From Vreelandella neptunia (lineage in GTDB: Bacteria; Pseudomonadota; Gammaproteobacteria; Pseudomonadales; Halomonadaceae): a stretch of 64,000 nucleotides of DNA. Both the position numbers and the translations under genes were made by a program. Where the stretch lies: NCBI RefSeq assembly GCF_034479615.1, contig NZ_CP140255.1, positions 2,418,001-2,482,000 of the forward strand, read 5' to 3'. The notes under the pieces were generated by a model. The model was given only the letters and a program-made list of their open reading frames with translations. It searched no databases and was not told the origin of the DNA. Below are positions 39,799 through 50,593 of this stretch, in pieces; the first letter of the stretch is position 1, and every line of letters begins with the position of its first letter.

Positions 39799-40815
39799 AT
39801 GGCACTACTTGAAGTCAACAACCTCGATGTACGCTTTGCGCTGCGCCAGGGCGAAGTACACGCCCTGCGCGATATCTGTTTCAGCCTTGAGCGCGGTGAG
39901 CGCCTGGGTATTGTCGGTGAGTCCGGCGCAGGCAAATCGGTTGCCGCGTTTTCGCTGCTCAACTTGATTGCCAAACCGGGCTTTATCGCCGGCGGCACGG
40001 TGACGTTTGACGGTCAGGTGCTTAACCGCATGTCTGAGCGCGGCCTGCGTAAGGTACGTGGCAACCGCGTCTCGATGATCTTCCAAGACCCAATGATGAC
40101 GCTGAACCCGGTGCTCTCCATTGGCGAGCAGATGGTCGAGTGCTTAAAAGCGCACCGGCGTATCTCCTCCAAAGAGGCTCGTGCGATCGCCCTGGACAAA
40201 CTCCAGCAGGTGCAAATCCCTTCACCTGAAACGCGTCTGGATCAGTACCCTCACGAGCTTTCAGGCGGTATGCGCCAGCGGATTATTATCGCCATTGCGC
40301 TGCTCCTCGACCCGGATATTATCATTGCCGATGAGCCCACTACGGCGCTTGATGTGACCATTCAGGCCGAGATCATGGCGCTGCTGCTTGACCTCTGCGA
40401 GCAGCACAATGTGGGGCTTATTCTGATCACCCACGACCTGGGCGTGGTCAGCCAGGTCACCCAGCGCATGCTGGTCATGTACGCTGGCCGAGTCATTGAG
40501 CAAGGGCCAACGCGGGAGATTATCAACGACCCGCAGCATCCTTACACCCAGGGGTTGATCAACGCCCTGCCGCAGATGGCAACGCCGGGTGAAAAGCTCA
40601 ATCAGATTCGCGGCAGCATGCCGTCACTCTCTAACCTGCCCAGCGGCTGCGCGTTTCATCCGCGCTGCGATTTTATCAATCGTGCCGATGGCCAGCCCCG
40701 CCCGGCCTGTACGCAGCAGGTGCCTGAATTTGTCGAATCCGGCAACTGCCGTGTGGCGTGTCATATGGTGGCTGAAATGCTCGAAGATCGCCGTTTGAAG
40801 GAGGAAACCTCATGA
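39799..40815 (+). CDS. Peptide ABC transporter ATPase, DppD type
   Basis: 338 aa. Walker [10 protein letters not shown]-loop [12 protein letters not shown], signature LSGGMRQR, Walker [12 protein letters not shown], and the C-terminal oligopeptide-importer extension with a four-Cys pattern (CAFHPRC...CTQQ...NCRVAC), which in DppD holds an iron-sulfur cluster. TGAGGA before the ATG. Overlaps the next ATPase gene. Confidence 0.94.
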
Positions 40816-41885
40816 GTGCGCACGCTGAGGCCATAACGGAAAGCCATAATTCTACTCCCCGTCAGAACGAAGAGAGCGCTGATTCGCTGCTGCAGATTCG
40901 CGACTTGAAAAAACGCTTCTCGCTCTCTGGAGATTTCCTCGATCAGCTGCGCTTCAAGGGCGGCAAGCTGGTTCGCCACCAAGAGCACGTGCATGCCATT
41001 AATGGTGTGAATCTGGATATCAAGCGCGGCGAAGCCCTGTGCGTGGTTGGCGAGTCCGGCTGCGGTAAGTCCACAGTGGCGCGTACCGTCATGGGGCTAC
41101 TGACCCCAACAGAGGGTGAAATTCGCTACGACGGCAAGCGCATCGATAACTTAAGCTCGCGCCAACTGCTGCCGTATCGCAAGCGGATGCAGATGATTTT
41201 CCAGAACCCTTATGCGTCGCTCAACCCACGCATGACCATTCAGCAAACACTTGAAGAGCCGCTACGCCTGCACCACCCTGACTGGAAACGGCCGCAGATT
41301 CTCCAAAAAGTTGAAGAGGTAATGCGTTCGGTGGGCATCGACCCCGACTGGGGCAAGCGCTTTGGTCACGAATTCTCAGGCGGTCAGCGTCAGCGTATCG
41401 CCATTGCCCGCGCTTTGGCCGTCGACCCTGAGTTTATCGTTGCCGATGAGCCTATTTCTGCGCTGGATGTCTCGATTCAAGCCCAGGTACTCAACCTGCT
41501 GATGGAAGCACAGCAAGAGCGCAATCTGACCTACCTGTTCATTACCCACGACCTAGCCGTCGTGGAGCATTTTGGCACCCGTGTAGCGGTGATGTACTTA
41601 GGCACGGTGTGTGAAGTTGCCACCACCGCGACACTGTTCGAGAAGCCCCGCCACCCCTATACCCAGGCGCTGCTCTCGGCGATTCCACGCTTGAAGGATG
41701 ACCGGCCCCAGCATATCCGTCTCACCGGCGAAGTACCGACCCCGGTTAACCTGCCTAGCGGCTGCGTGTTTCATGGCCGCTGCCCGCATGCCAATGCGCG
41801 CTGTAAGCAAGAAATTCCCGTGCTGCAAACACAGGATGACGGAACCCGTGTGGCGTGCCACGCTGTTGAGGAGGGGCGCCTATGA
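40812..41885 (+). CDS. Peptide ABC transporter ATPase, DppF type
   Basis: 357 aa. Walker A GESGCGKST, QNPYASLNPRMT, signature FSGGQRQR, Walker B VADEPISALD, and a similar Cys-containing C-terminal extension (CVFHGRCPHANARC). A very strong ribosome site (AAGGAGG) lies in the end of the preceding gene. Confidence 0.94.
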   Translation: MSAHAEAITESHNSTPRQNEESADSLLQIRDLKKRFSLSGDFLDQLRFKGGKLVRHQEHVHAINGVNLDIKRGEALCVVGESGCGKSTVARTVMGLLTPTEGEIRYDGKRIDNLSSRQLLPYRKRMQMIFQNPYASLNPRMTIQQTLEEPLRLHHPDWKRPQILQKVEEVMRSVGIDPDWGKRFGHEFSGGQRQRIAIARALAVDPEFIVADEPISALDVSIQAQVLNLLMEAQQERNLTYLFITHDLAVVEHFGTRVAVMYLGTVCEVATTATLFEKPRHPYTQALLSAIPRLKDDRPQHIRLTGEVPTPVNLPSGCVFHGRCPHANARCKQEIPVLQTQDDGTRVACHAVEEGRL

Positions 41886-41934
41886 AGCGGGTGTCATATT
41901 CGACACAGCGACCCCAGGTGCTGAGAGGTAGAGC

Positions 41935-42846
41935 ATGGAAATTCGCTGGCTAGAAGACTTTATCGCCCTGGCCAGAACGCGGCACTTCTCACGCGCAGCA
42001 GATGATCAAAACGTTACCCAGCCCACCTTCTCCCGGCGGATAAAACTGCTCGAGGAGGAGATGGGCGTAACGCTGATTAATCGCCAAACGCTGCCACTTT
42101 CGCTCACCCCGGCCGGGGAGGAGTTTCTGACCCTGTGCGAACAGGTAACCGACCGGGTGCGGCTGACCCGTGACCGGGTGCGCGAAATTAACGCTGGCCA
42201 GCAGCGGCGCATCATGGTCGCAGCACCGCAAAGCCTGTTGCCGCACTTCTTTCCGGAGTGGCTATCGGCGACAGGGTGGCAAGATCGCGTACAGCCCTAT
42301 TTGCGGGCGACCGGCTGGGTGGCCAATGACTACTTTCAAGCCTTGGCGCGTGCCGAGTGCGACCTGGCTATCTGTTACTGGCCGATTGGGCGCTGCGATC
42401 TGGAGATCGACACCAGCGCCTGTAATTATCGTGTGATTGGTCATGAAAGGCTGATTCCAGTGACTGGGTTAACCCCAGAGGGAGAACCACGCGCCCTGCT
42501 GCCTGGGTCACGCCATCAACCACTGCCGTGGCTTGCCTACCCCAAGCGTGGGTTGTTGGGGTCTGCGGTGAAAGCACACCTAGCCAGGCTCCCCCAAACC
42601 ACCTATTTAACCGCGCAGAGTGAAAATCTCTACGCGGCGGGTATTAAAGAGCTGGTGCTACTTGGCTACGGCATGAGCTGGCTGCCAGAGCGCAACGTCG
42701 CAGCAGAGCTTGCTCAAGGCACGCTGGTAAGAGCGGGCGATAGTCGCTGGGATGTGCCTATGGAGCTACGGCTATACCGTCATCAAAATCATCGCCACGC
42801 GGAGCTGGATAGCCTCTGGAGCGAACTTGCGCCGCCCCGTGTATGA
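41935..42846 (+). CDS. LysR-family regulator of the peptide-use cluster
   Basis: 303 aa. N-terminal winged helix MEIRWLEDFIALARTRHFSRAADDQNVTQPTFSRRIKLLEEEMG, then a periplasmic-binding-like effector domain. It sits in the same direction between the importer and the dipeptidase gene and probably regulates both; the effector is unknown. TGAGAGG upstream of the ATG. Confidence 0.88.
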   Translation: MEIRWLEDFIALARTRHFSRAADDQNVTQPTFSRRIKLLEEEMGVTLINRQTLPLSLTPAGEEFLTLCEQVTDRVRLTRDRVREINAGQQRRIMVAAPQSLLPHFFPEWLSATGWQDRVQPYLRATGWVANDYFQALARAECDLAICYWPIGRCDLEIDTSACNYRVIGHERLIPVTGLTPEGEPRALLPGSRHQPLPWLAYPKRGLLGSAVKAHLARLPQTTYLTAQSENLYAAGIKELVLLGYGMSWLPERNVAAELAQGTLVRAGDSRWDVPMELRLYRHQNHRHAELDSLWSELAPPRV

Positions 42847-42891
42847 ACCCGCATTTGAGAAATGCTTACTTAAGAGAGGGCACAGTTTTGT

Positions 42892-44190
42892 ATGTCAACC
42901 ACCCTATTTAACCTGCAACGCGAGCATATAGCGCACCTGCAGCATGCTTATTCGGATATTTTGACCGACCACGGGTTTGATAGTCTGGCGATTTACAGTG
43001 GTCATACCAGCGTACACTTTGCTGATGACCACGCGCCCCCTTTTCAAACTTACGGGCATTTTATGCACTGGGTGGGTTTAGCTGATGTGCAGCATAGCTG
43101 GTTGATTATTCAGCCAGAAAAGCGCCCGCAGCTGTACTTGTATGCGCCCGCCGATTTTTGGCACTTGCCTACTCACCTTCCCGAAGAGCCCTGGGTAGAC
43201 GCGTTTGATATCCACTTATGCAGCGAGAAAACCACCCCACCGCTTTCGGGGAATGCCGCCGTCATTGGCGATATTGAGCGTCTTGCCAGCAACATCCAGC
43301 AGGCGCTAAAAGCAGAGCATCACCCTGAGCAAATAGTCCATGCCCTTGATGAATTACGGCTGTTTAAAACACCCTATGAGATCGCCTGTATCCGTGAAGC
43401 CAATCGCTTAGCGATAGCGGGCCATCAGGCGTCCCAGGCCGCCTTTATTGGCGCATCCGGTGAGTTGGATATTCAGTTGGCGTACTTAGCAGCGAGTCGC
43501 CAGCGCGAGTCCAATGTGCCTTACCAAAATATTATTGGTTTAAATGAGCATGCTGGCGTGCTGCATTATCAACACTACGACCTGAACGCACCTAAACAGC
43601 GCTATAGCCTGCTAGTCGATGCGGGTCGCCGCTTTCGCGGTTACTGCGCTGATATTACCCGCACCTACTCTGGCCCTGATGCACCCGTCGCGTTTAGCGA
43701 ACTGGTCACCGCCATGCATGGGCTGAAAGATGAGTTAGTCAAAGGCGTAGCCCCAGGCGTTAACTTTTTAGCACTCCACGAACAGATGCATCACCACCTG
43801 GGTGAAATATTGGTGGCTAATGATCTGTTTAAAGGCACCGCAGAACAAGCGGTTGTCGAGGGTGTAACCCGGGCATTTTGCCCTCATGGACTGGGCCACT
43901 CGCTGGGCCTTCAAGTGCATGATGTGGCCGGGTTACGCCACCCGAATGGCACACCCGCCCCCGCGCCAGAGCAGCACCCAGCGCTACGGCTGACGCGCAC
44001 GCTGCGCCCTGGTATGGTCGTTACCATTGAGCCTGGGCTCTATTTTATCGCCATGCTGCTCGAACCGCTGCGCAGCACCTCACTGCCCATTAACTGGCGG
44101 TTGGTCGACCAACTCGCCCCCTGTGGCGGTATTCGTATCGAAGATAACGTCGCAGTGACAGAAAGCGGCTTTGATAACTTAACGCCGTAA
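42892..44190 (+). CDS. pepQ: Xaa-Pro dipeptidase
   Basis: 432 aa, M24B metallopeptidase that splits Xaa-Pro dipeptides. Creatinase-like N-terminal domain, then the pita-bread fold with two-metal ligands in LVDAGRRFRGYCADITRTYSG (both Asp), HGLGHSLGLQVHD (His), TIEPGLYF (Glu) and GGIRIEDN (Glu). The gene ends at a strong terminator. With the peptide importer upstream this forms an uptake-and-cleavage unit delivering proline, which also serves as an osmolyte. Confidence 0.93.
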   Translation: MSTTLFNLQREHIAHLQHAYSDILTDHGFDSLAIYSGHTSVHFADDHAPPFQTYGHFMHWVGLADVQHSWLIIQPEKRPQLYLYAPADFWHLPTHLPEEPWVDAFDIHLCSEKTTPPLSGNAAVIGDIERLASNIQQALKAEHHPEQIVHALDELRLFKTPYEIACIREANRLAIAGHQASQAAFIGASGELDIQLAYLAASRQRESNVPYQNIIGLNEHAGVLHYQHYDLNAPKQRYSLLVDAGRRFRGYCADITRTYSGPDAPVAFSELVTAMHGLKDELVKGVAPGVNFLALHEQMHHHLGEILVANDLFKGTAEQAVVEGVTRAFCPHGLGHSLGLQVHDVAGLRHPNGTPAPAPEQHPALRLTRTLRPGMVVTIEPGLYFIAMLLEPLRSTSLPINWRLVDQLAPCGGIRIEDNVAVTESGFDNLTP

Positions 44191-44227
44191 ACCCGCTATA
44201 ACGTCTTGCTAACCGCCTCTCTACAAC

Positions 44228-44260
44228 GCACTACGCCCGGCTCAAGGCCGGGCGTAGTGC
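44228..44260. terminator. Bidirectional stem-loop terminator
   Basis: GCACTACGCCCGGC pairs with GCCGGGCGTAGTGC over a short loop, between convergent pepQ and the outer-membrane protein gene. T-tract is poor. Confidence 0.75.
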
Positions 44261-44299
44261 TATTTCAGACGTCTTAACAAAGCTAAAGGGTAGCAATGC

Positions 44300-44893
44300 T
44301 TAGAAGCGATAAGTAACTCCACCGCCAATGGTGACGGGTTCGATGTCAACTTCACCACCGACGTTGATATCTGCGTTCACGTCAGCGTAGCTTGCGTAAC
44401 CATTGAGCATAACGTTATCAGTAACGGCCAGATCCACGCCTACTTGGCCGATAGCGCCATAGCTTTCATCGACGCTCAGACCACTGGGCTCGCTGGAAAA
44501 GTGCGTGTAGTTAAGGCCAGCACCCACGTAAGGCTGTACACGTGAATCTAAACCGCCTAACGGGTAGTAGTTGACCAGCAGATTGATCGGTAAGCGATCA
44601 ATGCTACCCGCGTCGACACCGCTGACGCTCAAGTCGTGCTCAAATTCTTCGGAGCTATTGAGCTCAATGCCCACTTTGTCAGTAAACAGATAGCCCACGC
44701 CGTAGGTTAATCCACGAGCTTCATCAACGCTTAGTGAGTCACCTGCTACGTTACCGTTACCTGAACCCGTATCCGTTTGGGCAACGCCGCCACGGACGAA
44801 TGCGTCACCAGCGTTGTAAGCGAGAGCCGCTGAACTGGCCAGTGCGAAACTAGCAGTGATTACAGCGGCAGAAATCAGTTTCATATTACTCAT
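44300..44893 (-). CDS. OmpW-family outer-membrane beta-barrel protein
   Basis: 197 aa. Signal peptide ending SAALA, then an eight-stranded barrel pattern: DAFVRGGVAQTDT, TYGVGYLFTDKVGIELNSS, LPINLLVNYYPLGG, VQPYVGAGLNYTHF and a C-terminal Phe in VTIGGGVTYRF, the BAM recognition end. Small hydrophobic-channel porins of this type respond to salt or stress in other bacteria. GAGGA 8 nt before ATG 44893 supports that start over 44884. Confidence 0.9.
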   Translation of the reverse strand: MSNMKLISAAVITASFALASSAALAYNAGDAFVRGGVAQTDTGSGNGNVAGDSLSVDEARGLTYGVGYLFTDKVGIELNSSEEFEHDLSVSGVDAGSIDRLPINLLVNYYPLGGLDSRVQPYVGAGLNYTHFSSEPSGLSVDESYGAIGQVGVDLAVTDNVMLNGYASYADVNADINVGGEVDIEPVTIGGGVTYRF

Positions 44894-45092
44894 CAGGGTC
44901 GTCCTCTATGCAACGCGCAGTTCCTTGCGCTTGGGGATTGCGGTACTTGCTATCCAACTTTCCTGTACAGAGTATAGTATACGAACACTGTTTCCAAATT
45001 TCTTGTAAAATATTGTTATAAGAAACTGCACCCTGATAGTTTTTCCTATGCTTAAAGCTCTGGCATAAAACTCAGGCATAAAATCCGGGCAT

Positions 45093-45115
45093 AAAAAAAG
45101 TCCCCCGAAGGGGAC
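45093..45115 (-). terminator. Intrinsic terminator with UUCG loop
   Basis: Minus strand GTCCCC-TTCG-GGGGAC followed by seven T. It is ~300 nt beyond the bdhA stop and upstream of the ompW-like promoter region, so it best fits a separate short transcript. Confidence 0.88.
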
Positions 45116-45228
45116 CAGGTGGAGCACGCCAGCTCACTCGGTTTGTTGCTACCAGCCGGTAGCAACGTGGATGAAGAAGGAAAAGAAGCCAGATGGTTAA
45201 TTGCGCCTCTCTATTCACTCATCCTTTG
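45093..45228 (-). ncRNA. Candidate sigma-54-dependent small RNA
   Basis: Between bdhA and ompW-like there are 526 bp with no gene. On the minus strand a -24/-12 element (45239-45254) predicts transcription from about 45228, and a strong terminator ends at 45093, giving ~136 nt. The transcript contains no ribosome site with a usable frame (only M-S-E-stop). It folds locally: GGAUGA near the 5' end can pair with UCAUCC about 50 nt later; GUUGCUACC/GGUAGCAAC forms a perfect 9-bp hairpin (45146-45167); then GAGC/GCUC; then the terminator. Between stems lies a pyrimidine-rich single strand that could pair with ribosome sites. Not recognised as a known RNA family. It could instead be an attenuated bdhA 3' trailer. 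Confidence 0.5.
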
Positions 45229-45238
45229 CCATATATAT

Positions 45239-45254
45239 AGCGATCTGTGTGCCA
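45239..45254 (-). promoter_or_regulatory. Candidate sigma-54 promoter (-24/-12)
   Basis: Minus strand TGGCACACAGATCGCT against consensus TGGCACGRNNNTTGCW: GG and GC are exactly 10 bp apart and the full TGGCAC is kept. An IHF consensus lies 20-50 bp upstream in AT-rich DNA. Confidence 0.55.
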
Positions 45255-45274
45255 CTTTTTTAAATATCATTAAA

Positions 45275-45287
45275 AATCAAATATTTA
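45275..45287 (+). promoter_or_regulatory. IHF-binding consensus
   Basis: AATCAAATATTTA fits WATCAANNNNTTR without mismatch. It lies in an AT-rich tract at about -47 to -59 from the predicted start at 45228, a usual place for IHF at sigma-54 promoters. Confidence 0.5.
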
Positions 45288-45419
45288 ATTAAAAAACACC
45301 TCTCTAGAATCAACCTCCGACGCACTGCAGCAAACAAAATGCACCAGCATTGCGCACTTTGCGGTCTTTTTGCATCACAAAGCACCATATACGTTTGTTT
45401 ACGCTTTGGAATCCTCAGA

Positions 45420-46490
45420 TTAGTGGTGGGGTGTCACGATGATTTTCACTTGGGCTTTGTCGTTTAGCAGCGCCTCAAAGCCCTCCTCCACGATATCCGC
45501 CAATGGAATACGCTGAGTGACCATGTCCTCGGCGCGGAAGTAGCCTCGTTGCATCAGCGCCATTACCGCGGGGTAAACATGTCGATAGGCAATAATGCCC
45601 TTCATGGTGCGCTCTTTGATGACTAAATCGTTAGGCTGAAAGCTGGCCTCTCCTTCCCAAATACTCACCACCACCACTTCGCCCCCTTCGTGAGTGCTGT
45701 GCAGCGCCTGATTCAGCACGGTAGGAATGCCGGTCACTTCAAACGCCACGTCCACTCCACCACCGCTCAAGGCTTGTAATTTCGCCACAACATCCTCTTG
45801 CTGCGGATCAACCACAGTGGCACCTAGCGCTTTAGCTTTGGCTTTCCGTGAAGGCGCGACCTCAACAGCATATATTTGAGCAGCGCCTGCGGCTTTTAGC
45901 GCTTCAATGGTCATCAAGCCAATCGGCCCAGCACCAAACACGGCCGCACTATCCCCTGCTTTCAGGCAGCTTTGACGCACCGCATGTAGCGCTACCGCCG
46001 CGGGCTCGACCAGTGCGCCCTGCTCGAAGCTGAGATCATCCGGCAGCTTGTGCACCATATGCTCACCCATCACGGTGAACTCGGAAAAGCCACCGCCACC
46101 GCCGGATAGACCATGAAAGCCAAGCAAGGGCGTCAGGTTATAGCGCTCCATCTGGTAAGCGCCATCTTTGTTGGGCGAGAGAATCGGCTCAATCGCCACG
46201 CGGTCGCCCACTTTCACTCGCGTCACCTTATCGCCGACCTCGACCACTTCACCAGCGAACTCATGGCCCATAATGATCGGCGCCTGCTCGCCACTGATCG
46301 GGTGCGGCTTACCTACCGGAATAAAAATGGGCCCGGCGGCATACTCGTGCAGATCACTGCCGCAAATACCACAGGCAGCCACTTTCACCTTCACTTCATG
46401 GGGGTCGCTGATAGTGGGAACCGGCACTTGCTCAACGCGTAAATCTTTTGCTGCATACCATACCGCTGCCTGCATGCTTGACTGACTCAT
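45420..46490 (-). CDS. bdhA: (R,R)-2,3-butanediol dehydrogenase type alcohol dehydrogenase
   Basis: 356 aa, zinc medium-chain dehydrogenase converting butanediol and acetoin. Catalytic zinc ligands in ACGICGSDLHEY (Cys40 or Cys43 region) and MGHEFAG (His76, Glu77). Cofactor motif VFGAGPIGLM. The Cys-rich structural-zinc lobe is absent, as I recall for Bacillus BdhA, whose GFLGLAGGGGGFSEY and NDIVIKERT...GIIxYR stretches are closely matched here. It lies 17 bp after the monooxygenase gene, with AGGAAGG upstream, and is thus in one operon under the AcoR-like activator. No acetoin dehydrogenase genes are next to it. Confidence 0.88.
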   Translation of the reverse strand: MSQSSMQAAVWYAAKDLRVEQVPVPTISDPHEVKVKVAACGICGSDLHEYAAGPIFIPVGKPHPISGEQAPIIMGHEFAGEVVEVGDKVTRVKVGDRVAIEPILSPNKDGAYQMERYNLTPLLGFHGLSGGGGGFSEFTVMGEHMVHKLPDDLSFEQGALVEPAAVALHAVRQSCLKAGDSAAVFGAGPIGLMTIEALKAAGAAQIYAVEVAPSRKAKAKALGATVVDPQQEDVVAKLQALSGGGVDVAFEVTGIPTVLNQALHSTHEGGEVVVVSIWEGEASFQPNDLVIKERTMKGIIAYRHVYPAVMALMQRGYFRAEDMVTQRIPLADIVEEGFEALLNDKAQVKIIVTPHH

Positions 46491-46507
46491 GGGTTACCCT
46501 TCCTGTT

Positions 46508-48322
46508 TTAAGACGTATGGTGAACCGGCTGCAGACCGTAGACAGGCGTTTCCAGCCCTTCCATCCGTGCCTTTAACTGCAGCGCCAAGTAGTGTGAGTA
46601 GTGCCGCGACTGGTGCAGGTTGCCGCCATGGAACCACAGCGCCTCTTGCTGGGTGGGTTTCCACATATTGCGCAGCTCGCCCTCCCAGGGGCCAGGGTCT
46701 TTGGTGGTGTCAGAGCCCAGGCCCCAGCACTTGCCGACTTTATCCGCCACTTCCTGAGAGATAAGCCGCGCCGCCCAGCCATTCATGGAGCCATAGCCAG
46801 TCGCATAAACGATCAAATCTGCCGCTAGCTCGCTGCCATCGGTGAGGGTGATGGAGTGGGAATTGATGCGCTCAATGCCTACGCCGCTGCGCAGTTTGAT
46901 ATCGCCGTTGGCGACCAGATCACAGGCGCCCACATCGATGTAATAACCCGAGCCACGACGCAGGTACTTCAAGAACAGACCCGAGTCGTCGTCACCAAAA
47001 TCGAGCATAAAACCCGCGTCTTCCAGCTTCTGATAGAACTCGGCGTCGCGCTGTTTGATTGCCTCAAACGCCGGGCGCTGAAAGTCCGGCAGCACCTTGT
47101 AGGGAATCGAGGCAAAAATCAGATCAGCCTTGTCGTGGGTTAAGCCACTTGCCACCGCCTCTTCGGAGTAGAGTGGCCCCAGCACTTCCTCCATCAGCGA
47201 ATCCGACTTAACGATATGGGTGGATGAGCGTTGCAGCATGGTGACATCGGCGTCGTGCTCCCAAAGTGCCGCGGCAATATCGTGAGCAGAGTTATTCGAG
47301 CCTACAATCACGCACTTCTTGCCCGCGTAAGCATCCGGCCCTGGGTGCTGGCTGGAATGCTGTTGCTCGCCTGCGAAGCTCTCTGCACCAGGAAATGACG
47401 GCACATTGGGCATACCCGACATCCCGGTGGCCATTACCAGCTGTTTCGGGCGTAGCGTGATCGCTTCGCCGTTGCGCTTGACGTTAACCACCCACTCGCC
47501 TGCGGCGTCGTCATAGCGCGCATTCTGACACTCAGTGGAGCTCCAATAATTGAGCTCCATCACCTTTGTGTACATTTCCAGCCAATCGCCCACCTTGTCT
47601 TTAGGCGCAAACACCGGCCAGTTTTCTGGGAAAGGAATATAGGGAAGGTGGTCGTACCACACCGGGTCGTGCAAGCAGAGGGATTTGTAACGCTTGCGCC
47701 AGGAGTCCCCGGCGCGCTCGTTGCGCTCGATAATAATGGTTGGCACACCCATCTGCTTCAGCCGCGCCCCAAGGCCAATCCCACCTTGGCCTCCGCCGAT
47801 GATCACGCAGTAAGGCTGTTGGGTATAGCCAAGCTCTGCTTCTTCGCGCTCCCGTAACTCTAACCAGGTTTCACGCTGTTTGTTGGCCCCATGCTCGGCA
47901 CCTTTTGGGCGGTTGTGATTACGCGGCTCGGGGAAGTCGTGCAATGCCTGCATGGTGGTTAACAGCGTCCAGCATTTGCCGTCTTTAAGGCGCAGGTAGC
48001 CTTTGCCGCAGGCGACCGCTGTCTCAAAGGTAAACCACGCCTCACTGGTATCGCCGTTCTGGGTAGCTTCGCCTTCTAGCTGCCAGTTCGTAGGACGCAC
48101 GTTCTCCAGGGTGGCATTGAGCATGGCCTGAATAGCATCTTTTCCCTCACAGGTTTTTAAATTCCAGGTAAAGGTTACAAAGTCGCGCCAGTAGCACTCC
48201 TCATTAAATAGCGACAAGACACGCTGAATATCTTGGGTTTGCAGCGCGTTATCAAAATCACTCAGCCACCCTTGAACAGTGGCCGTGGCGGTTTTCTGGG
48301 TTTGTGCCGATATCTCGGACAT
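46508..48322 (-). CDS. Flavin-dependent monooxygenase with NTF2-like N-terminal domain
   Basis: 604 aa from ATG 48322 (GGAG 8 nt upstream; the frame reaches 48394). Residues ~15-140 form an NTF2/SnoaL-like domain. Then comes an FMO/YUCCA-like oxygenase: FAD motif IIGGGQGGIGLGARL (~175-189), fingerprint FAGEQQHSSQH (316-326) of the FxGxxxHxxx type with His in the last place instead of Phe/Tyr/Trp, NADPH motif VIVGSNNSAHD (~339) and VYATGYG. The substrate is unknown; with butanediol dehydrogenase in the operon, a small ketone or acyloin is a guess. Controlled by the divergent sigma-54 activator (inference). Confidence 0.88.
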   Translation of the reverse strand: MSEISAQTQKTATATVQGWLSDFDNALQTQDIQRVLSLFNEECYWRDFVTFTWNLKTCEGKDAIQAMLNATLENVRPTNWQLEGEATQNGDTSEAWFTFETAVACGKGYLRLKDGKCWTLLTTMQALHDFPEPRNHNRPKGAEHGANKQRETWLELREREEAELGYTQQPYCVIIGGGQGGIGLGARLKQMGVPTIIIERNERAGDSWRKRYKSLCLHDPVWYDHLPYIPFPENWPVFAPKDKVGDWLEMYTKVMELNYWSSTECQNARYDDAAGEWVVNVKRNGEAITLRPKQLVMATGMSGMPNVPSFPGAESFAGEQQHSSQHPGPDAYAGKKCVIVGSNNSAHDIAAALWEHDADVTMLQRSSTHIVKSDSLMEEVLGPLYSEEAVASGLTHDKADLIFASIPYKVLPDFQRPAFEAIKQRDAEFYQKLEDAGFMLDFGDDDSGLFLKYLRRGSGYYIDVGACDLVANGDIKLRSGVGIERINSHSITLTDGSELAADLIVYATGYGSMNGWAARLISQEVADKVGKCWGLGSDTTKDPGPWEGELRNMWKPTQQEALWFHGGNLHQSRHYSHYLALQLKARMEGLETPVYGLQPVHHTS

Positions 48323-48377
48323 AGCGAGAACTCCATGGTTTGTTATTGTAGAATTGCTTGTGAGACACCCAACCCTA

Positions 48378-48394
48378 AGCACCCGTCGTGCCAA
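48378..48394 (-). promoter_or_regulatory. Sigma-54 promoter of the monooxygenase-bdhA operon
   Basis: Minus strand TTGGCACGACGGGTGCT matches YTGGCACGRNNNTTGCW with one mismatch. Predicted start near 48367, leaving a ~45-nt leader with GGAG before the gene. Inverted repeats at about -114 to -150 would be the activator sites. Confidence 0.8.
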
Positions 48395-48480
48395 AACGCA
48401 TACAACTTAAATAACTAACTGAAAAATAATATTATTTAATAAAGCGAAGCGGCGATAATACGTAGTAAGAGGACGTACAC

Positions 48481-48518
48481 CTGTCACACTGTTTACAGCC
48501 AGGTGTTACAGGTGTAAC
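48481..48518. promoter_or_regulatory. Inverted repeats, likely activator-binding sites
   Basis: Two adjacent dyads: CTGTTTACAG at 48489-48498 (within CTGT-N10-ACAG, 48481-48498) and GTTAC-AGGT-GTAAC at 48505-48518. They lie 80-118 bp upstream of the activator gene and more than 110 bp upstream of the sigma-54 start on the other strand, as enhancer sites do. Confidence 0.6.
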
Positions 48519-48598
48519 GCACGACTAACGGCGTAATAGCGCTGCGTTGACACCCACGCCAGAGCGCATAGGCTGGAAGGACAATAACAATCCCTACG

Positions 48599-50593
48599 GT
48601 GAACCACGCCATGCCTACTCAATCGCCTCTGCCTGCACGGCTGCAATCCGTCCAGCGCCAGCATATTGAGCATATTTTCCAGCTCGGCGAAGGCCTGGAA
48701 GTTCCGCAGCTACCGGCCCAGCCGACCATTCGGCGCTCCTGGCTGCGTTGCCTCAACGAGTATCAGCTCGATCCCACCCAGCCACGCCCAGCGCGGGTGG
48801 TGCCCCAGCAAATCCTGATTGAGCACCGGGAATCTGTGGATGAACTACTGCACGTGGCAAGAGCCGGGGTTGACCAGCTCTATCAGCAAATCGCCCAGCT
48901 AGGCTATGTGCTGCTACTCACCGACCACCGCGGGATAACCGTCGAGTTTCGTGGCGATCCCAATCAAGACCAGCAACTGCGCAAAGCAGGCCTTTATCTC
49001 GGCGCTGACTGGGACGAACGCTTTGCAGGCACCTGTGCAGTAGGCACCTGCCTGCATGACCGACAAGCAATCATTTGCCACCGCCAGGAGCACTTCGACG
49101 CCTCGCATATTTCGCTTACTTGCACCGCGGCACCCATCGCCGACCCACAAGGCAACGTCATGGCCGTGCTGGACATCTCCGCACTGCAATCACCTACCCA
49201 GCATGAGAGCCAAAACTTTAGCCTCTCGCTGGTAACGCTCTACGCGCGCATGATTGAGGACGCCTATTTTCTCCAGCGCTACCGTGACTGCCTGATGGTG
49301 CGGCTGGATACCTCGCGTGAGTTTGTGCATGTAAACGGGCGCGGACTCATCGCCATTGAAGAGAACGGGCAAATGATTGCCGCCAACGCAGTGGGTCGTG
49401 ATCTGATAAGTGAACACCAGCGCCGTTGGCCACCCTGGTCAGACCATCACACCCCAATGCTGGGGGAGCTATTCGAGTGCGAGATCGCCGATGTGCTCAG
49501 CATTAACAGTGCCACCGACGATCAATTGCGTGCTTTTCGTGCCAGGGTCGACAACACGATTTACTTTATTAGCCTGCTGGAGCCCCGCCGCCCGCGCCCT
49601 GCTCAGCAAGCACAACCGCTCGCCTCCAGCCTGCCGGAACCACTGGTACGCCTCGGTGCCGACGACCCCGCCATGCGCAAAGTGCAGAAACTGGCTGAAC
49701 GACTGCGCAATGAAGCCAGCGTTAATGTGCTGATTAGCGGAGAAACCGGCACCGGCAAAGAGGTGGTTGCCCGTGCCTTGCATGACAGCGGCAACCGATC
49801 TAAGGGCCCCTTTATCGCGGTAAACTGTGCCGCCATTCCCGAAGCGCTGATCGAAAGCGAGCTGTTTGGCTATGAAGCCGGCGCCTTTACCGGTGGCCGC
49901 GCCAAAGGCATGCGCGGGCTGATTCCCCAAGCCCATGGCGGCACGCTGTTTTTAGATGAAATCGGCGATATGCCGCTAGCCCTGCAAACCCGCCTGCTGC
50001 GCGTACTGGCCGAGCGAGAAGTGATGCCATTGGGTGCCAATAAGCCTGAAAAGGTTGATATCCGGGTGATTACCGCCACTCATCGCAATATCGATGCGAT
50101 GATCCAGCAGGGCGAGTTCCGCGAAGATCTCTATTACCGCCTAAACGGGGCCCAACTTCGCCTGCCCGCGCTACGCGACCGCGCCGATAAGCTCTACGTT
50201 ATCCGCCGCGTATTTGACGACATCATTAAAGAGCGCGCCTCCAGCCAATCTCCCCGACTGCGGGCCGACGCCATCAGCGCCCTGCTCGCCTATGCTTGGC
50301 CCGGTAATATCCGCCAGCTAAAGAATGCGCTGGCCTTTGCACTGGCCACCTCGGAAAGCGATGAAATCACCGTTCATGACCTACCCGAGCAGTGCCTTAG
50401 CCAACGCATTACCCAGCAGAGCCCCCACAAGCCTGCGGACGCTCATGGCAACACCGATCACACATTGCTGGAAATGCTTAAGTCACAGCACTGGAACATA
50501 AGTGCCGTGGCACGCGCGCTGGGGGTTTCTCGACCCACGATCTACCGGCAAATGCAGCGTCAGGGCATAATGCCGCCGAATTGGCAGGGGTAA
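48599..50593 (+). CDS. AcoR-like sigma-54-dependent activator
   Basis: 664 aa from GTG (ATG at 48611 is the alternative; neither has an ideal ribosome site). N-terminal GAF-type sensor region (~80-230), a second linker domain, an AAA+ domain with Walker A GETGTGKE (381-388), and LFLDEIGDMPL for Walker B. The sigma-54 contact loop reads GAFTGG (428-433) where GAFTGA is usual. C-terminal Fis-type HTH NISAVARALGVSRPTIYRQMQ. Architecture is that of acetoin regulator AcoR and relatives. Divergent from the monooxygenase-bdhA operon, its likely target. Confidence 0.92.
   Translation: MNHAMPTQSPLPARLQSVQRQHIEHIFQLGEGLEVPQLPAQPTIRRSWLRCLNEYQLDPTQPRPARVVPQQILIEHRESVDELLHVARAGVDQLYQQIAQLGYVLLLTDHRGITVEFRGDPNQDQQLRKAGLYLGADWDERFAGTCAVGTCLHDRQAIICHRQEHFDASHISLTCTAAPIADPQGNVMAVLDISALQSPTQHESQNFSLSLVTLYARMIEDAYFLQRYRDCLMVRLDTSREFVHVNGRGLIAIEENGQMIAANAVGRDLISEHQRRWPPWSDHHTPMLGELFECEIADVLSINSATDDQLRAFRARVDNTIYFISLLEPRRPRPAQQAQPLASSLPEPLVRLGADDPAMRKVQKLAERLRNEASVNVLISGETGTGKEVVARALHDSGNRSKGPFIAVNCAAIPEALIESELFGYEAGAFTGGRAKGMRGLIPQAHGGTLFLDEIGDMPLALQTRLLRVLAEREVMPLGANKPEKVDIRVITATHRNIDAMIQQGEFREDLYYRLNGAQLRLPALRDRADKLYVIRRVFDDIIKERASSQSPRLRADAISALLAYAWPGNIRQLKNALAFALATSESDEITVHDLPEQCLSQRITQQSPHKPADAHGNTDHTLLEMLKSQHWNISAVARALGVSRPTIYRQMQRQGIMPPNWQG

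Follow-up and report, generated by a model that had tools for sequence, protein, structure and literature searches.

On the minus strand of the window, the 64,000-nucleotide stretch of Vreelandella neptunia DNA that was analysed, two NtrC-like sites and an IHF consensus match precede a sigma-54 promoter, which is followed by a predicted transcript with two stem-loops, an invariant 3' module and an intrinsic terminator (Table 1). The transcription start was predicted at 45228 from the position of the -24/-12 promoter, and the resulting RNA corresponds to G000:C1:2463093-2463228 in the 4.95-Mb genome. A preliminary description of this DNA had listed an exact IHF consensus, a sigma-54 element with GG-N10-GC spacing, a perfect 9-bp hairpin and the sequence GTCCCC-TTCG-GGGGAC followed by seven T residues. 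All of these were verified at their positions by direct reading. The approximately 136 nt had also been described as lacking coding potential; in agreement, no ORF of at least 80 aa was found to overlap the RNA locus, and the longest ORF with start and stop both inside the predicted transcript comprises 3 codons. Folding of positions 45228-45093 yielded -53.3 kcal/mol compared to a mean of -37.8 kcal/mol for shuffled sequences (z -4.35), and none of 200 shuffles folded as well. The Rfam search that had been proposed for the locus (window positions 40000-50000, E up to 5) detected no family near its gathering score on the RNA strand; the sole overlapping match was RAGATH-25 on the opposite strand, with 21.5 bits versus a gathering score of 49. 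No description of the RNA was found among the listings and passages of a non-exhaustive literature search. In the same part of the window, a zinc-dependent dehydrogenase gene (45420-46490) adjoins a flavin monooxygenase-like gene, which lies beside a divergent sigma-54 activator gene (window positions 46508-50593), and none of these three genes passes an NCBIfam cut-off shown.

Table 1. Features of the predicted small RNA gene and its upstream region (window positions).
Feature	Position	Strand	Remarks
Second, upstream NtrC-like site TGGTGCTTTGTGATGCA	45371..45387	-	Weak match, 9/14 positions of the assumed NtrC consensus
NtrC-like site TGCGCAATGCTGGTGCA	45340..45356	-	12/14 positions of the assumed consensus TGCACYANNNTRGTGCA
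IHF consensus match AATCAAATATTTA	45275..45287	+	Between activator sites and core promoter
Sigma-54 -24/-12 promoter TGGCACACAGATCGCT	45239..45254	-	GG-N10-GC spacing; consensus TGGCACGCaG.TCGCa in 51 loci
Predicted small RNA, approximately 136 nt	45093..45228	-	5' end predicted from the promoter; folding z, covariation, covariance model
5' stem-loop (stem I)	45169..45224	-	Helices 1-2 of the covariation analysis
Stem II, perfect 9-bp hairpin GTTGCTACC/GGTAGCAAC	45145..45166	-	Helix 3; 5/5 counted pairs with two-sided changes
Invariant 3' module GTGAGCTGGCGTGCTCC	45121..45137	-	Predicted hairpin with exposed UGGCGU hexaloop; identical in 51/51 loci
Intrinsic terminator GGTCCCC-TTCG-GGGGACT and T run	45093..45116	-	Helix 5

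A 331-base region covering the locus was searched in 97 genomes and matched in 62 of them. Matches were present in 58 of the 61 genomes of the same genus (V. neptunia included), in some only through a second copy of the 3' module, and the matches in four genomes outside the genus were weak (E 0.002-0.007). A total of 69 loci were collected, 66 of which contain the 3' core with at most 5 mismatches, and 51 of those also have a suitably spaced sigma-54 element. The three loci without the core at this threshold were dropped (one of their genomes, G056, later matched the covariance model), as were the 15 of the 66 loci without a sigma-54 match, at least one of which, L039, represents a chance core match. 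Promoter, RNA and terminator are common to the 51 same-genus loci, the window among them. The preliminary description had made its proposal of a new sRNA gene depend on the conservation of the -24/-12 element and the hairpins, and the retention of promoter, stems and terminator in these loci lends support to that proposal.

A covariance model built from the 51 loci matched 227 of the 275 family genomes, in 14 of 24 genera, when strict filters were applied and either copy of the module was counted. The 48 family genomes without a match under these filters count against the best explanation given below. A 23-base pattern was found with at most 2 mismatches in 225 of the 275 genomes. Beyond the family, no match to the covariance model was detected in an even sample of 145 genomes of the order, as all four matching genomes belong to the same family, and with at most 1 mismatch the pattern occurred in 2 of 369 genomes of a class sample, both from the same genus. 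Scanning provided at least 119 loci, all of them from genera of Halomonadaceae according to their titles (Halomonas, Vreelandella, Billgrantia, Modicisalibacter, Litchfieldella, Bisbaumannia and Halovibrio). Seven loci with less than 450 nt of upstream sequence were dropped. The others comprise 32 loci that follow an ammonium-transporter gene, termed amt here, and 80 loci that do not, termed RNA loci, a few of which lack a credible promoter (L162, L183 and L195). For a promoter located immediately upstream, the 32 amt loci provided a natural negative control; the family-wide set overlaps in species with the 51-locus set. Inspection by eye revealed several loci from other genera in which the 5' part is reduced to a single hairpin and the 3' module is kept.

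The 51 RNAs can be aligned from the 5' stem through the terminator, with stem I shortened in three of them (L037, L041 and L045). In this sequence-based alignment, 14 of 28 predicted pairs display two-sided changes. The number of cells with such changes amounts to 118, compared to 39.9 +/- 7.3 in shuffles, and none of 500 shuffles reached this value. Likewise, 97.3% of the cells are paired versus 39.5-53.9% when the partners were slid. The number of additional pair types did not exceed that of the shuffles (239 of 500). The most telling case of covariation is provided by stem I, in which GAUGA/UCAUC in V. neptunia is represented by GCAAA/UUUGC in other species, and in the terminator helix two of eight pairs show two-sided changes, with 99% of the cells paired. 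In the best explanation given below, the 5' stems are structural and fast-changing. Helix 4, located inside the 3' module, is invariant and support for its folding by covariation is consequently absent. One further sequence at the RNA 5' end, CAAAGGAUGA (window positions 45219-45228), is a CsrA-like motif and is present in 8 of the 51 loci only.

Taken singly, neither the IHF nor the sigma-54 motif is remarkable for 64 kb, as judged against shuffled sequences. A degenerate sigma-54 pattern occurs twice in the window versus 1.35 times in shuffles, 40 of 100 of which reach two occurrences, and the IHF consensus occurs five times versus 1.65 +/- 1.22, with 2 of 100 shuffles reaching five. The motifs are convincing because they are conserved and not because they are rare. 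Conservation among the 51 loci is high at positions -40 to -21 (mean 1.11 and 0.96 bits). The sigma-54 consensus is partly built into this set, as its loci had been preselected for carrying the element. The aligned loci also share an A/T-rich IHF-like stretch and, farther upstream, the sequence cgca..g.tGGtGca. For the IHF site of the preliminary description, the exact match in the window holds true and its conservation was weakly tested, with 0, 1, 2 and 3 mismatches in 6, 30, 13 and 2 of the 51 loci (at most 1 in 36) in an A/T-rich stretch and without a control. Among the loci listed in the family-wide set, a sigma-54 score of at least 13 is reached by 61 of the 80 RNA loci, by none of the 32 amt controls and by 3 of 112 shuffles; at a score of at least 12 these values are 72 of 80, 3 of 32 and 14 of 112. 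The remaining 8 of the 80 RNA loci listed score below 12, which counts against the best explanation. Overall, a conserved -24/-12 element is correctly spaced from a predicted transcript that is short, non-coding and terminated, as is generally expected of a sigma-54-dependent sRNA gene.

The RNA lies on the same strand as the dehydrogenase gene bdhA, and at L030, in a single genome, the promoter is missing and the 3' half directly continues bdhA. A mere 3'UTR or processed tail of bdhA, or else a tiny protein gene, is nevertheless hardly credible given that the RNA possesses its own conserved sigma-54 promoter, that bdhA is often not found and that no ORF is common to the 51 loci. ORFs of at least 20 codons that end inside the RNA exist in 18 of the 51 loci and are alike by eye only among close relatives; the window has none, and a small protein was rejected. 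A second reading regards the RNA as a cis-acting leader or attenuator of a downstream ompW gene instead of a trans-acting molecule. An OmpW-family gene (PF03922) does follow 42 of the 51 same-genus loci, but among the RNA loci listed across the family a same-strand ompW gene within 800 nt was found in 30 of 80. Ten loci were too short to tell and 40 had no match at E 1e-8, a threshold that a highly divergent ompW might fail to reach. On the basis of these family-wide neighbour counts, and with the terminator conserved, the ompW leader was rejected as very improbable.

The region upstream of the promoter was scored with an NtrC consensus, which we take to be TGCACYANNNTRGTGCA. At -105 to -99 from the TGG of the -24 element, 45 of the 51 loci score at least 10 and all 51 score at least 9, versus none and one, respectively, at a control offset of -205 to -199. 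A second site at -136 to -130 scores at least 9 in 37 of 51 loci, compared to 1 of 51 at the control offset; the 14 loci that score below 9 count against the best explanation. Among the loci listed in the family-wide set, 59 of 80 RNA loci and none of 32 controls carry a forward TGGTGC half-site at -92 to -95 relative to the TGG of the -24 element. In either orientation between -170 and -50, TGGTGC is found in 70 of the 80 RNA loci listed versus 5 of 32 controls, and its absence in both orientations from the scanned range of 10 of the 80 again counts against this explanation. Two nitrogen promoters of the same genome carry similar sequences. The operon of the PII gene and amt has the sigma-54 element TGGCACAGTATGCGC with TTTTTTGGTGCA upstream at -103, and glnA has TGGCATGCTCTCTGC with TTTTGGTGCG upstream at -137. 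These half-site distances differ from those at the RNA loci, which is a further point against the explanation. NtrC, RpoN and Hfq are each encoded in the genome above curated cut-offs.

As expected for a member of the NtrC regulon, NtrC-type sites thus occur at a fixed upstream position with half-sites resembling those of glnA and the PII-amt operon, as judged by the assumed consensus. The conservation of these sites, the similar half-sites and the presence of NtrC and RpoN make NtrC the likely activator, and not the regulator of the neighbouring operon. Control by another enhancer-binding protein, such as the product of 48599-50593, would give the co-control with the neighbouring sigma-54 operon that had been suggested in the preliminary description. 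A sigma-54 activator gene is indeed located approximately 3.3 kb away, and nine places in the genome reach at least 240 bits with the NtrC model, one alone above its cut-off. This suggestion found no support and is considered unlikely, since the upstream sites resemble NtrC sites and the half-sites of the PII-amt and glnA promoters, and the RNA persists next to other neighbours. Conservation is lacking on the bdhA side: a match to bdhA was obtained in 23 of the 51 same-genus loci, in three of them approximately 0.9-1.4 kb away and with some loci too short, and within 800 nt in 12 of the 80 RNA loci listed family-wide, some of which were also too short. Judged from these sequence features, the minus strand at 45093-45228 very probably encodes, as a gene of its own, a small regulatory RNA which salt-loving Halomonas-type bacteria switch on under nitrogen shortage.

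The 17-nt module of the RNA (GUGAGCUGGCGUGCUCC/GTGAGCTGGCGTGCTCC) has exactly two exact copies in the 4.95-Mb genome. The second copy (G000:C1:4525097-4525113) is located 35 nt after the stop codon of amt and just before another terminator. The amt gene follows the PII gene in a glnK-amtB-like operon, and its product passes the NCBIfam cut-offs for marine-subtype and general-subfamily ammonium transporters and fails that of the E. coli-type AmtB. Both contexts of the module, the RNA gene and the amt 3' end, recur across the family. The two copies adjoin different terminators and yet agree fully in the module, an indication that the module itself is under selection. Its UGGCGU loop was predicted to be unpaired in six of seven sRNAs folded (the exception being L041) and in the amt 3'UTR. 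The occurrence of one module in both the RNA gene and the end of the amt mRNA suggests that two genes feed one RNA-based control. An NtrC/sigma-54-dependent sRNA whose probable seed also occurs in the amt 3'UTR is the best overall explanation of the sequence data, to which a probability of roughly three in four is assigned.

Some Halomonas genomes contain extra module copies, at G544:C1:16434-16656 and at three places in G548; the two copies in G544 start 200 bp apart and one of them has a mismatch. Locus L030 (G060:C150, upstream of 1572) lacks the promoter and the 5' half of the RNA, so that stem II and the 3' module come almost immediately after the stop codon of bdhA. This arrangement is possibly a natural conversion of an sRNA gene into a 3'UTR.

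For the NtrC/sigma-54-dependent sRNA, the following mechanism can be envisaged. Under nitrogen limitation, phosphorylated NtrC would bind the tandem sites approximately 120 and 150 bp upstream of the transcription start, IHF would bend the intervening DNA and sigma-54 RNA polymerase would produce an RNA of approximately 136 nt with its 3' end at the UUCG terminator. The working part would be the invariant 3' module GUGAGCUGGCGUGCUCC beside the U-tail of the terminator, a likely Hfq site. A short RNA may also be released from the mRNA of the PII-ammonium transporter operon, which carries this module close to its end. As sigma-54 and NtrC-like sequences are present in the promoter region of that operon too, two pools of RNA with a single seed would be expected under nitrogen limitation. 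The module would probably pair in trans with the ribosome-binding sites of putative targets via GGCGUGCUCC and repress their translation. We lean, with some reserve, towards a two-source nitrogen-starvation RNA regulon in which the stand-alone sRNA and the amt 3'UTR release RNAs with an identical invariant seed hairpin, and in which the expression of amt and of the dedicated sRNA would be coupled to the same repressed mRNAs in most of the Halomonas family.

Potential targets were searched by complementarity to the module. A full complement that tolerates G-U pairs was found at 27 places in 19 genomes, 17 of which are the exact complement of the module (the RNA and amt copies) and 10 are scattered others. 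In the V. neptunia genome, 19 near-complements with at most 3 mismatches, including the two exact copies, were detected versus 5 for a reversed-pattern control, an unexplained excess, and none of the 17 near-complements other than the exact copies is convincingly located at a start codon. The target pattern GGAGCACGCN{1,12}ATG was then searched in 21 same-genus genomes, and at most 50 of the places listed were examined. Its reversed control was near zero (0 to 3 for each strand of a genome); this is little informative because GGAG ahead of ATG is common as a ribosome-binding site. The sequence GGAGCACGCCTTATG, which would form 10 perfect pairs with the module over the Shine-Dalgarno sequence, is present in seven of the 21 genomes; in six of them the start opens an etfB-like ORF, and the string also occurs in the seventh. 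By a rough estimate, chance would provide about one gene of this kind in each genome, and the etfB-like gene is therefore only a lead as a candidate target. The V. neptunia copy contains the ETF domain and reaches no NCBIfam cut-off. At its ribosome-binding site (L310 about 1002, G000:C1:2118502), GGAGCACGCC presents 10 nt of perfect complementarity to the module, an observation repeated in several same-genus genomes. Candidates that had been named purE-like by eye were dropped, as they appear to be located inside coding sequence.

The lack of a convincing target in this search is consistent with the main rival explanation, in which the RNA gene and its NtrC/sigma-54 control are the same and the UGGCGU hairpin instead binds a protein such as Hfq, a CsrA-type protein or another. 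The RNA would then act as a CrcZ-like decoy and the amt copy would be an mRNA stability or decoy site. The invariance of both stem and loop of helix 4 and the predicted exposure of the hexaloop would also be accounted for. Decoy RNAs of this sort are multi-site, unlike the present RNA with one such site per molecule, and the CrcZ-like motif AACAAYAA is present in none of the 51 RNAs. A protein-binding role is thus possible but considerably less probable than the trans-pairing seed.

Among the known small RNAs, NrsZ and GlnZ are closest in kind to the predicted RNA. Passages of PMC8395346 describe NrsZ of Pseudomonas aeruginosa as a stand-alone sRNA of approximately 226 nt that is encoded between ntrC and PA5126, is transcribed by NtrB/C and RpoN when nitrogen is limiting, and has its function in the first 60 nt. 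The RNA reported here shares with this description the stand-alone gene and, as predictions, nitrogen limitation and NtrC/RpoN control. It differs in its length of approximately 136 nt, in its invariant part at the 3' end and in its genomic place, as ntrC is located at G000:C1:161714-163084 and the RNA is not downstream of it. Homology to NrsZ was addressed indirectly, by model searches: the RNA strand has no Rfam match and, among the 145 genomes of the order sample, the covariance model matches its own family alone. GlnZ of Enterobacteriaceae is an RpoN-dependent sRNA of the NtrC regulon derived from the glnA 3'UTR, as stated in passages of PMC9731577. An origin in the 3'UTR of a nitrogen gene is also proposed for the amt copy, but the host gene is an ammonium transporter gene instead of glnA, a separate sRNA gene carries the module in addition, and the UUGCCGUGGAAA given there as conserved in GlnZ is found in none of the 51 RNAs. 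Because genomic place, conserved sequence and host gene differ from what these sources describe, no membership in either group is claimed.

CrcZ of Pseudomonas, a CbrB-activated RNA of 407 nt with multiple A-rich Hfq motifs, has an RpoN-dependent promoter with IHF involvement, as predicted for the present RNA, as far as passages of PMC8395346 describe it. The preliminary description had remarked on the missing repeated CA motifs of CrcZ, which is borne out by the absence of the A-rich pattern from all 51 RNAs, and identity with CrcZ was excluded. The ncRNAs NfiS (RpoN-dependent) and NfiR (bound and controlled by NtrC) of Pseudomonas stutzeri are linked to nitrogenase gene expression in passages of PMC6606865; by description, their RpoN/NtrC control resembles that predicted for the present RNA, and the nitrogenase link sets them apart.

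A few groups are known to have small RNAs that belong to the NtrC regulon. A seed common to a stand-alone sRNA and the amt 3'UTR would provide a testable case of two transcripts that feed one post-transcriptional control, for which the invariant 17-mer offers an immediate mutational handle. The same case also bears on how a 3'UTR-derived sRNA may give rise to an sRNA gene, or the reverse.
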